Below, piece by piece: positions 17,382 through 30,374 of a stretch of DNA of 64,000 nucleotides. The stretch comes from Sphingomonas sp. 37zxx. GTDB lineage: Bacteria > Pseudomonadota > Alphaproteobacteria > Sphingomonadales > Sphingomonadaceae. Position 1 is the first letter of the stretch. Each line of letters begins with the position of its first letter. The position numbers and the translations under genes were made by a program. Under the pieces are notes generated by a model. The model did not search any database and was not told the DNA's origin. It was given only the letters and a program-made list of their open reading frames with translations. The DNA is taken from NCBI RefSeq assembly GCF_000786205.1, contig NZ_JROH01000003.1, positions 1 through 64,000 on the forward strand, read 5' to 3'.

Positions 17382-19154
17382 ATGATGAATTACATCGTCA
17401 CTGCCGGACCTCCAACTCCCAATGGCGACCTTCATCTAGGCCATCTTTCTGGTCCATATCTTTCAGCTGATATTGTCGCACGGCATTTGCGGATGCGGGG
17501 AGCACAAGTCCGCTATATCTCTGCCAGTGATGACCATCAAAGCTATGTTGCTCGCATCGCTCAGCAACAAGGCAGCGACCCAGCTACGGTAGCAGCGGAA
17601 AACGGGCAACGTATCCGCAACTCGCTTCGCAGCGCGGGCATCGCGCTGGATTTATTTGCCTCACCATCGCAATCGCAGCGCTACAAAGGCTTTATCGGAC
17701 GGGTTTTTCGTACCCTCCTCGATCGCGGCGCGCTCGAAGAGCGGACTATTGATCAGCTTTTTTGCGTGTCCTGCGATCGATTTGCGTTCGAGGCTCATAT
17801 TCGGGGCAATTGCGCCCATTGCGGGGCCAACAGCGACGGTGGGATTTGCGAGGCATGCGGTAAGCCCAATGCTGGCACCGACCTTGGTGACCCGGTTTGT
17901 GTCACCTGTTCGGGAACACCTGAGCGCCGTCCGCTACGCCAACTATGGTTCCCGCTTGAGCGCTATCGCAGTGCCGCCGAATTCACCTTAGCATGCGCTT
18001 CATTGAGCCCGCGGGCACGCGCGCTGGTAACTGAATTGCTCGCTGGGCCGCTGGCTGACGTTCCCGCCACCCAGCCGGCCGACTGGGGCATTCCCGTGCC
18101 CGAAAGCGGTTATGACGACCAACGGATTTCCGCGTGGTTTGAACTGGGCCCGCATTATCTGGCACTCACCGACCTGTTGCCCGAGGCGTTGGATAGTTCG
18201 GGCGGCTGGCGCCGGCCATGGGCGGGGTTTGATACCGTCATCCAGTGCTTCGGGTTCGATTCGATCTATTTCCATGTCGTGCTGTTTCCGGCGATCTTTC
18301 AGGCCTTTGATCCCGGCCTGCGCCCGCCGATGGGGTTCATCACCAACGAATTCTTCCGGCTCGACGGCAGCAAGTTCTCCACCAGCCGCGGCCATGCCTT
18401 GTGGGCCGGCGATTTCCTGCGCGATCATGATGCCGATTCGCTCCGCTTTCATCTGGCGCGGGTTTCGCCCGAGATCGCGCAGACCAATTTCACGCTCGAA
18501 GAGTTCGAGGCGACGCGCAGGGACGAGTTGATCGGCGTCTGGGACGGATGGCTAGGCGACCTTGCACAACGCTGTTCGGCGGCGGGCGGGAAGGTTCCCA
18601 CCGCGCCGATGCCGCAAAGTGCGCCGATTGCGCTGGGGCGGCTCGCCGGTCTGTGCGGTGATCTGTCTGGCTGCTATTCAGTCCAAGGCTTCTCGCCGAG
18701 CCGCGCCGCGCATCTGCTGGGCGAAATCGTGCGCCTGGTGCGCCGCTTTCGCGCCGAGCACGCAATCTTCGATGGCAAGCCCGATTCCGCGATAGAAGCC
18801 GCTGGAGCGCTGGCGGTCGAATTGGCCTTTGCGCGCGCCCTCGCGCTGGCCGCCGCGCCGATTCTGCCTGCGTTCGCCGAGCGGCTGTGGCGCGATCTGG
18901 GCGAGGCGGATGCGGTGGCGGACGCACGCTGGGAACTGCTGCCAGCGATGCCGATCGCAGGCACCCCGATTTCGCTTTCGGCCACCGGCTATTTCGAAAC
19001 CGCACCGCCGGACGCCAACGCTGAGCCTGAGCCTGAGCCTGAGCCTGAGCCTGAGCCTGAGCCTGAGCCTGAGCCGGTAGCCGCCCCGGAACAAGCTGAG
19101 CAACTCGCAAAGGATACCAAGCCCGCACCCCGCGCCAATCGGAGGCAAGCATAA
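17382..19154 (+). CDS. Methionyl-tRNA-synthetase-like enzyme of the biosynthetic operon (putative hydrazine-synthetase partner)
   Basis: A 590-aa class I aminoacyl-tRNA-synthetase-like protein. The start at the first ATG of an ATG-ATG pair follows gaggggg. It has TAGPPTPNGDLHLGHLSG with the HIGH motif as HLGH (18-21). Four CxxC knuckles (128/131, 144/147, 156/159, 173/176) resemble the two-zinc MetRS insertion. The KMSKS loop is KFSTS (331-335), so the second Lys is replaced by Thr. The C-terminus is a low-complexity tail with nine Glu-Pro repeats. MetRS-like domains activate the amino acid partner in cupin/MetRS hydrazine synthetases; with an N-hydroxylase and a cupin in the same operon I infer that role here rather than tRNA charging. 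It overlaps the NRPS start (TAATG). A resistant MetRS copy is the main alternative. Confidence 0.8.
   Translation: MMNYIVTAGPPTPNGDLHLGHLSGPYLSADIVARHLRMRGAQVRYISASDDHQSYVARIAQQQGSDPATVAAENGQRIRNSLRSAGIALDLFASPSQSQRYKGFIGRVFRTLLDRGALEERTIDQLFCVSCDRFAFEAHIRGNCAHCGANSDGGICEACGKPNAGTDLGDPVCVTCSGTPERRPLRQLWFPLERYRSAAEFTLACASLSPRARALVTELLAGPLADVPATQPADWGIPVPESGYDDQRISAWFELGPHYLALTDLLPEALDSSGGWRRPWAGFDTVIQCFGFDSIYFHVVLFPAIFQAFDPGLRPPMGFITNEFFRLDGSKFSTSRGHALWAGDFLRDHDADSLRFHLARVSPEIAQTNFTLEEFEATRRDELIGVWDGWLGDLAQRCSAAGGKVPTAPMPQSAPIALGRLAGLCGDLSGCYSVQGFSPSRAAHLLGEIVRLVRRFRAEHAIFDGKPDSAIEAAGALAVELAFARALALAAAPILPAFAERLWRDLGEADAVADARWELLPAMPIAGTPISLSATGYFETAPPDANAEPEPEPEPEPEPEPEPEPVAAPEQAEQLAKDTKPAPRANRRQA
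19023..19076 (+). repeat. Hexanucleotide tandem repeat gagcct x9 (last copy gagccg)
   Basis: Nine consecutive 6-bp units encode a Glu-Pro x9 tail near the end of the MetRS-like protein. Unit changes would alter linker length without shifting frame. Such tracts expand and contract by slippage. Confidence 0.95.
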
Positions 19155-29613: not shown

Positions 29614-30374
29614 TGCCGGGCGAGCAAATGGCGCGCGGCGCGGTTGCGCTGTGGCTGGTGCCGCGTGCGGGCGCGCACCGAGACCCCCGCGCGGAAGCCG
29701 CCGAACTCAGCCCCGCCGCCCGCGAGCGGATCAATGCCCTTCGAACGCCTGACGCTCGCGATGGACAATTGCTCAGTCGCGCTTGGCTCGCGCGGATGCT
29801 GCGCGCCTATTTCGGCCCGGCGAGCGCGGGCTGGACGATAGGCGTGGATTGCAAAGGATGCGCGGTCTTGCGCGATGCACCGCCCGAAATCGCGATCGCG
29901 TTCGCGCATGGACGCGACAGGATCGCCATCGCCATCGGCCATGATTGCGGCCCCGGCCTTGGCATCGACCTCGAGGATCGGCTCGACCGCGACGATCCGC
30001 TGCTGGCGCCGGTCATCCTCGCACCCGCCGAACTGGAACGCTATCATCGTCTGGCGACCGGCAAGCGGCGGCGGCAATATCTACTCGTGCGCTGGGTCGC
30101 GAAAGAGGCCTATGTAAAGGCCCGCCGGGTGGGTCTGGCGATGCCATTTGATACTATCGAAGTGATTGAGGCCGCGCCCGGCGTGTATGGCGTTGGTCAT
30201 CCCGCCGGCCTGGATGGGCAGCACTGGCAGGTGCGGCTGCTGGAACCCAGCGACGATCTGGCGATTGCCGTGGCCTGGGCACCGACGCGCGATACACCGC
30301 TGGCGCTTACCGTCCACAGCGTCGATGAACTACCCTTTGAGCGTGATGCGTTTACGCTGATCCGTTTACGCTGA
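29613..30374 (+). CDS. 4'-phosphopantetheinyl transferase (Sfp type)
   Basis: A 253-aa enzyme that transfers phosphopantetheine from CoA to carrier-domain Ser, here most likely S1013 of the operon's NRPS. Motifs are IAIGHDCGPGLGIDLEDRLDR (Mg-binding GIDLED) and LLVRWVAKEAYVKARRVGL (WxxKEAxxK). The ATG overlaps the previous stop (TGATG). The 3' end lies within a 14-bp tandem duplication that moves the stop and adds Leu-Arg. It is the last gene of the operon. Confidence 0.9.
   Translation: MPGEQMARGAVALWLVPRAGAHRDPRAEAAELSPAARERINALRTPDARDGQLLSRAWLARMLRAYFGPASAGWTIGVDCKGCAVLRDAPPEIAIAFAHGRDRIAIAIGHDCGPGLGIDLEDRLDRDDPLLAPVILAPAELERYHRLATGKRRRQYLLVRWVAKEAYVKARRVGLAMPFDTIEVIEAAPGVYGVGHPAGLDGQHWQVRLLEPSDDLAIAVAWAPTRDTPLALTVHSVDELPFERDAFTLIRLR

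Follow-up and report, generated by a model that had tools for sequence, protein, structure and literature searches.

What might a sphingomonad make with nine packed genes that place a methionyl-tRNA synthetase (MetRS)-like protein, a flavin N-hydroxylase and a cupin protein beside a nonribosomal peptide synthetase (NRPS)? The genes, designated g1 to g9, occupy positions 17382-30374 of the plus strand in the window (the whole stretch of DNA analysed, 64,000 nucleotides of contig NZ_JROH01000003.1 of Sphingomonas sp. 37zxx), and all nine are open at that place. The operon very probably encodes a hydrazine synthetase (HS) pathway, since g1 stands apart from canonical MetRS, the cupin resembles the known HS cupin RHS1 with its catalytic Glu and two His kept, and N-hydroxylase and DAO-type oxidase genes co-occur with such proteins in a survey of related loci. 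As judged from sequence, we further consider it likely that the pathway is of the diaminobutyrate (DABA) type, with a split HS, and that it supplies an NRPS of one module.

The genes, their conservation, their placement in families and their active-site residues are established directly. A preliminary description had claimed a tight nine-gene plus-strand operon encoding a MetRS-like protein, an N-hydroxylase, a cupin, a DAO-type oxidase, a C-A-T NRPS and a phosphopantetheinyl transferase; coordinates, strand and spacing agree with it (neighbouring genes are spaced by -46 to +34 bases, a range that narrows to -4 to +34 with ATG 29613 as the start of g9), as do Pfam and NCBIfam with the enzyme list. 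From g1 to g9, Pfam names MetRS catalytic; Condensation, AMP-binding and PP-binding; Lys_Orn_oxgnase; Cupin_2; GMC; Aminotran_3; DAO; Peripla_BP_6; and ACPS. The features are as follows.

17382-19154, plus strand: g1, MetRS-like protein (ATG 17382 or 17385); PF09334 at 243.9 bits, tree, residues
18372-18389, plus strand: KFSTSR motif of g1, read in the sequence
19154-22363, plus strand: g2, NRPS of a single C-A-T module; Pfam, core motifs HHVNADG, TSGTTGPPKG, YGPTE and LGGHSL
22394-23731, plus strand: g3, flavin N-hydroxylase, predicted substrate L-2,4-diaminobutyrate; PF13434, N-hydroxylase tree, EctB association
23746-24558, plus strand: g4, GGCT-like domain (residues 1 to about 140) fused to an N-N-type cupin (residues about 155-270); profiles, alignments, fold search
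23983-23985, plus strand: Asp80 of g4, pairing with a Glu of human GGCT (in LDEQE) replaced by Ala in the 2rbh chain
24340-24360, plus strand: cupin metal motif Y199-x-H201-xxx-E205 of g4, with H239 at 24460-24462; alignment with 96 cupin matches
24593-26248, plus strand: g5, GMC oxidoreductase, N-terminus Tat-like (NRRGFLG); Pfam, start re-set inside the open reading frame
26245-27549, plus strand: g6, EctB, diaminobutyrate--2-oxoglutarate transaminase; TIGR02407 at 582.5 bits, cut-off 552.2
27557-28597, plus strand: g7, DAO-type FAD oxidase; PF01266
28594-29613, plus strand: g8, Peripla_BP_6 protein, possible partner of the DAO; Pfam, profile comparisons
29613-30374, plus strand: g9, phosphopantetheinyl transferase; PF01648, frame opening at 29568, ATG 29613 likelier by comparison with the Sphingomonas leidyi locus L027

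The probable hydrazine synthetase core

Related loci (cited by L numbers) were surveyed in a set of 94, composed of 13 plasmid loci, the locus of genome G046 (S. leidyi DSM 4733) and 80 genome-contig loci, the last being the best 80 of at least 524 relatives and retrieved by the patterns NGDLH[LV]GH and L[ED][GNQ]xKFSTSR. When locus content was scored with profiles built in this analysis (domain E < 1e-3), a cupin was found in 93 loci, an N-hydroxylase in 87, a DAO-type oxidase in 86, EctB in 20 (16 above 150 bits) and a relative of g8 in 13.

The MetRS-like protein g1 scores under the cut-off of every NCBIfam MetRS model listed, and its own genome encodes another MetRS that matches the Pfam MetRS model at 336.7 bits, compared with 245.4 bits for g1. 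In a MetRS tree of 101 rows, built by a quick method and omitting L106 as too short, four canonical MetRS, including that of the same genome, split off with an SH-aLRT value of 99, while g1 groups with Sphingomonas rows (100) and next with Bradyrhizobium (100) among HS relatives; g1 thus falls outside the four canonical enzymes and does not show the grouping with tRNA-charging enzymes that the preliminary description had named as contrary evidence. The Vibrio plasmid protein of L119, first labelled canonical, fell among the MetRS-like rows beside a Xenorhabdus plasmid protein.

In three aligned columns, presumably the anticodon contacts of Escherichia coli MetRS, canonical rows carry Asn, Arg and Trp in five of five cases and g1 carries Gly, Asp and Phe, a contrast that is not clean, as Trp is kept in MetRS-like L040 and L028 and Asn in L039. 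Pocket residues of g1 also differ from canonical MetRS. Kept in g1 and in 91 of 93 MetRS-like rows is the Asp that aligns with what we take to be D52 of E. coli MetRS, and g1 has the ATP-motif Lys (equivalent to PyrN K458) within KFSTSR. This motif is present in 12 of 12 separately aligned MetRS-like relatives, the only ones that count independently because KFSTSR was part of the search pattern for the 80 genome-contig loci. KFSTSR was also considered as an HS marker, a use weakened by the metG sequences of Bacteroidota (KISTSR) and Acaryochloris (KFSTSS).

Two further features of this protein family were observed. Firstly, Asp replaces the ATP-motif Lys (DFSTSR) in plasmid proteins of Xenorhabdus sp. 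TCT-1 (L122, 4001-5461), which adjoins a GNAT and an adenylation protein, and of Vibrio halioticoli (L119, from 601). Secondly, the C-terminal tail of g1 (about 19017-19151) consists of an EP repeat and a PAPRANRR end; APRANRR is kept in S. leidyi and in Sphingomonas sp. IBVSS2, with a differing linker between, and is absent in Bradyrhizobium. This end is perhaps a docking tail.

The cupin half of g4 had been expected to resemble HS cupins, and known N-N cupins are among its top profile and fold matches. Among solved structures, plu4264 and 4rd7 are its closest relatives by profile and 5uqp ranks fourth; in a fold search with an AlphaFold model of g4, made from 4 sequences and with a mean pLDDT of 55.6, the top three were 4mv2 (plu4264), 4rd7 (a Salinispora cupin) and 5UQP (E 2-4e-7). 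The last is RHS1, for which the ligands D63, H65, E69 and H103 of zinc are described, and which together with the MetRS-like domain of PyrN forms an N-N bond (PMC8664883; this and all other papers are cited from excerpts). Locus L037 bears the accession of RHS1 itself. Among 96 cupin matches (60 bits or more, no more than two per locus), H201, E205 and H239 are matched in 94, 96 and 96 cases, respectively, E205 being equivalent to RHS1 E69 and PyrN E56, and H201 and H239 to RHS1 H65 and H103. Two residues ahead of H201, where the first metal ligand normally sits, the matches have H in 77 cases, D in 13 and Q in 2; F or Y occurs there only in the four rows with a GGCT fusion (L027, L038 and L075 with F, L039 with Y). 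The gene is under purifying selection, with a dN/dS of 0.13 relative to G046. In L044 and L051, both from Acidobacteria metagenome-assembled genomes (MAGs), a tandem cupin pair lies ahead of the MetRS-like domain.

Conservation and distribution of the operon

Would other sphingomonads show the same gene order, a check that the preliminary description proposed? In S. leidyi DSM 4733, which belongs to the same genus as the window genome, all nine genes recur in identical order at 61-87% identity, with dN/dS values of 0.10-0.25 over the nine genes, and this shared order argues that the arrangement is not due to chance. Genes g1-g8 are also found in L038 and L075 (Sphingomonas sp. IBVSS2), both loci stopping inside g8; L027, the G046 locus, and L038 represent one strain. 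In Bradyrhizobium sp. U87765 (L039), g1, g2, g3, g4, g6 and g7 occur in the same order at 32-57% identity, and a relative of g5 sits on the opposite strand.

Across 150 genomes, that of the window included, a full-length relative of g4 outside its own genome was found only in G046 (82%), and 19 further genomes gave partial matches only (best E 1.3e-7). A profile of the fusion was run on two samples that contained the window genome, 385 genomes from the class and 397 from the family, and returned only the window genome at E <= 1e-10; these samples miss known carriers, because neither G046 nor Bradyrhizobium U87765 gave a row. No paper naming this operon was found among those listed in searches of the open-access literature.

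The idea that the operon is a fresh island was dropped, its GC content being ordinary. Seven flanking proteins of the window had no match in L027, L038, L075 and L039, loci whose sequence scarcely extends past the operon on one or both sides, and PADLOC returned no match for g1 or g8. Upstream lie a tRNA-Gly(ccc) (16472-16545) and then an AT-rich stretch before g1; downstream, a small LuxR/sigma-4-like regulator is encoded at 30625-31143.

Elsewhere in the survey, two HS loci each were seen in Bradyrhizobium sp. U87765 (L039/L104), Streptomyces sp. GKU 895 (L063/L076), Streptomyces sp. JHD 1 (L069/L077) and one Acidobacteria MAG (L040/L042). Plasmids of Pantoea ananatis (L032) and Klebsiella variicola (L033) carry N-hydroxylase, cupin and MetRS-like genes.

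The first substrate

DABA is the probable first substrate of the pathway, as suggested by the placement of g3 and by the neighbouring EctB gene. In an N-hydroxylase tree of 93 rows, g3 lies within a clade of 23 (support 100/98), and 19 of the 22 other rows come from EctB loci. Counted by locus, with L065 added to the count by hand, EctB is present in 13 of 15 loci of the clade versus 3 of the 72 other N-hydroxylase loci, and in 9 of 11 clade loci once the four alphaproteobacterial loci are set aside. The opposite half of the tree holds the rows from the RHS1 locus and the row from Nocardia ninae, the latter presumably from the dob locus, whose DobG acted on lysine (PMC13061610). For actinopyridazinone, Apy11 is described as a DABA-specific N-hydroxylase and Apy9 as the HS (PMC11705231).

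The sole EctA match in the genome reaches 25.7 bits, far below the cut-off of 120.6, so EctB is hardly there for ectoine. The position of EctB varies among these clusters, and the linkage has therefore apparently survived rearrangement. The preliminary description had counted an EctB-like enzyme among the novelties of the operon: g6 does score above the EctB cut-off, but EctB exceeds 150 bits in 12 actinobacterial HS loci and so is not new. In a separate comparison, for which L031 and L037 had supplied seed proteins, EctB and saccharopine dehydrogenase were considered as mutual replacements (16 and 11 of the 94 loci, respectively, 0 with both), and the idea was not retained (p = 0.11).

Accessory proteins and the GGCT-like domain

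The Peripla_BP_6 protein g8, which the preliminary description did not name, lacks a signal-like hydrophobic N-terminus by a crude test, and no permease was found among the nine genes by Pfam. In Deinococcus (L029), Pantoea (L032) and Pseudomonas orientalis (L089), members of its family have genes of their own; in L025, L052, L057, L059, L060, L068 and L106 they precede a DAO on one open frame. The N-terminal half of L025, a seed of the g8-family profile, is unnamed by Pfam. A profile comparison of g8 with six of the fused domains (L106 omitted) gave a probability of 98.5, and a control against the DAO half gave 0.5. Co-occurrence of g8 and DAO says little by itself, because 86 of 94 loci have DAO anyway; as read from the gene fusion, g8 is possibly a partner of the DAO.

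No TE or R domain was found in g2 by the Pfam scan. The same genome also encodes a second Condensation-domain protein (G000:C63:5299-6570, open frame of 2848 aa).

A GGCT-like domain was detected in 4 of the 94 loci (L027, L038, L075 and L039 only). With PF06094 (GGACT, cut-off 22.8), the S. leidyi protein scores 25.3 bits, and those of the window (15.6) and Bradyrhizobium (17.8) fall below the cut-off; a four-row profile matches human GGCT at E 0.0005. The pairing of Asp80 is taken from the native chain 2pn7, a gap shifting the column in the 2rbh alignment, and a bacterial GGCT in L008 likewise pairs its Glu with Asp80. As Asp80 is invariant in 4 distinct fusions, the catalytic Glu of GGCT, which we take to be E98 of the human enzyme, is absent from them. 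Because no GGCT was among the 50 fold matches listed for the low-confidence g4 model, in which cupins were present, the GGCT reading rests on sequence profiles. Our guess is that the cyclotransferase fold of this half has been retired or altered, and that it may now serve to hold the ester or a partner in assembly.

What, then, is unusual about the operon? The preliminary description had portrayed it as an undescribed variant, and this view stands in part. A MetRS-like gene beside a one-module NRPS and a phosphopantetheinyl transferase is ordinary, as in the azaserine (azs) cluster. Separation of the MetRS-like protein from the cupin is published (PMC8664883), and 41 of the 96 cupin matches lie on a separate frame from the MetRS-like domain; it is no more a novelty than EctB. 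Export of the GMC oxidase is not a shared trait, as the open frame of the Bradyrhizobium copy lacks a Tat-like N-terminus. The GGCT-like partner is indeed present and unusual, although not as a separate protein but as the N-terminal domain of the cupin protein. Less ordinary, and in this survey limited to Sphingomonas and one Bradyrhizobium, are the GGCT fusion and the loss of the first metal ligand. Two further features count as less ordinary: the placement of g3 in an EctB-linked clade, and a substrate-binding protein next to the DAO whose relatives are joined to a DAO in seven loci.

A proposed pathway and the points against it

By homology, EctB (g6) would convert aspartate semialdehyde to L-DABA, g3 would hydroxylate the side-chain nitrogen of L-DABA, g1 would adenylate a second amino acid and esterify it onto the N-hydroxyl, and the cupin half of g4 would rearrange the ester to form the N-N bond. 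The DAO g7, possibly aided by g8, would then cut a C-N bond oxidatively to give a hydrazine acid, a reaction assigned to g7 by homology, the side of the cut and the role of g8 being guesses. Finally, g9 would activate the NRPS g2, again by homology, which might condense the hydrazine acid (a guessed substrate), and the GMC oxidase g5 might, at a guess, oxidise a late intermediate. The preliminary description had likewise favoured an N-N-forming pathway, and the MetRS tree, the likeness of the cupin and the lack of a hydroxamate acyltransferase all fit it.

A more elaborate version of this scheme, which we offer tentatively and regard as doubtful, holds that DABA carries nitrogen and is then regenerated. 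Cutting on the DABA side, the DAO would release an alpha-hydrazino acid and aspartate semialdehyde, the latter being re-aminated to DABA by EctB with glutamate; EctB would then do for DABA what saccharopine dehydrogenases do in lysine-type clusters, and the GGCT-cupin, its metal site short of the usual first ligand, would have evolved to hold or process the labile O-aminoacyl ester.

Several observations weigh against a DABA-type HS pathway. The DABA assignment would rest on the clade and a neighbouring gene, and the Fisher value of 5e-11 for the link between clade and EctB ignores shared ancestry. The EctB loci L043, L046 and L050 have N-hydroxylases in the half of the tree opposite to that of g3, and a Pseudomonas orientalis row, presumably Por9, lies in the half of g3 outside the clade of 23; Por9 has been linked to ornithine (PMC11705231). 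Long branches are present in both the MetRS and the N-hydroxylase trees. Identity of g7-g9 to G046 (61-64%) is lower than in the rest of the operon, and g8 and g9 had no match within the available Bradyrhizobium locus L039. The actinopyridazinone pathway comes from a Streptomyces host and was likened by description, not by the apy sequences. Lastly, g4 has Tyr199 rather than His or Asp at the first metal-ligand position. Such a loss need not kill the enzyme, because PyrN H50A kept about 82% of its activity while RHS1 D63A was inactive yet still bound zinc (PMC8664883).

Alternative explanations

The explanation that best survives beside a DABA-type pathway, though we think it improbable, is an HS pathway acting on lysine, as for s56-p1, triacsin and azaserine, or on ornithine, with EctB present for some other reason. 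Lysine-type loci share the core enzymes, Pfam does not separate lysine, ornithine and DABA hydroxylases, and the presumed Por9 shares the tree half of g3; nevertheless, that half excludes the presumed dob and the RHS1-locus enzymes, the nine genes include no saccharopine dehydrogenase, and EctB lies inside the operon both here and in Bradyrhizobium.

Rather less probable is that the altered cupin no longer makes an N-N bond and that the product is an N-O compound, an O-aminoacyl hydroxylamine. The confinement of the Tyr/Phe first-ligand position and of the GGCT-like fusion to a single clade in the survey would suit such a change of function, but the catalytic Glu and both His residues are invariant in that clade and g4 has remained under the purifying selection noted above.

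We regard as very unlikely a hydroxamate siderophore operon in which the product of the N-hydroxylase is acylated and built into a peptide, the simple hydroxamate that the preliminary description had itself weighed. An N-hydroxylase, an NRPS and a phosphopantetheinyl transferase do occur together, and a TonB-receptor-like frame (named by eye) lies upstream on the opposite strand; however, Pfam reveals no N-acyltransferase for a hydroxylamine among the nine genes, the pairing of MetRS-like protein and cupin is left unexplained, and the TonB-like frame adjoins a LacI-type gene and has no match in the limited flanks of related loci. That g1 is a spare or resistance-type MetRS sitting by chance in an NRPS operon is scarcely credible: the Pfam model still recognises it, but a better-scoring MetRS exists elsewhere in the genome, the Asn, Arg and Trp that presumably read the anticodon are replaced and its pocket residues differ, and cupins and N-hydroxylases travel with such proteins.

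Comparison with known systems

Actinopyridazinone-type traits are alanine as the second amino acid and a dihydropyridazinone product, and ring formation in that pathway is reportedly carrier-protein mediated. The likeness of the DABA-type pathway proposed here to Apy11, Apy9 and Apy10 would lie in an N-hydroxylase predicted to act on L-DABA, an HS and DAO-family cleavage (PMC11705231). Within the excerpt of the same source, HS pathways with a named product are actinobacterial, HS enzymes from other phyla have been tested, and DABA is both the hydroxylated partner for actinopyridazinone and one substrate taken by a Pseudomonas HS (PMC11705231).

PyrN and Rhodococcus RHS1 share with the operon a MetRS-like protein and a zinc cupin, RHS1 and its MetRS-like partner each being standalone proteins, and differ in using lysine and glutamate and in having H or D as first metal ligand (PMC8664883). 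Unlike the operon, they have no GGCT-like domain, and the RHS1 locus holds a saccharopine dehydrogenase-type gene. In the azs cluster a MetRS-like gene directly precedes that of a one-module NRPS without TE, and a phosphopantetheinyl transferase is also encoded; the cluster differs in its fused cupin-MetRS-carrier protein, its Cy rather than C domain and its hydrazinoacetic acid building block, and its set of AMP-binding protein, N-acetyltransferase and C45 peptidase is absent from the nine genes (PMC10445470).

The L089 locus of P. orientalis DSM 17489 (presumably por) resembles the operon in its N-hydroxylase, DAO, HS and g8-family protein, and differs in that neither EctB nor a GGCT-like domain was found in the available locus. 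Actinobacterial EctB-linked loci (L058, L061-L063, L067, L069 and L090) share EctB, a standalone cupin and DAO, and hold the nearest relatives of g3 outside the alphaproteobacteria; in contrast to the operon, they have two N-hydroxylases and no GGCT fusion, and no g8-family protein was found in them. Paired N-hydroxylase genes were seen in HS clusters L058, L061, L062, L063, L064, L067, L069 and L090, and EctB exceeds 150 bits in all of them but L064, a short locus.

Significance

Taken together, these comparisons suggest that EctB beside an HS is a possible genome-mining marker for hydrazines of the DABA type. The operon is kept in two alphaproteobacterial families and one of its carriers is held in a culture collection, and it may thus offer a testable N-N biocatalyst whose metal site has been altered naturally.

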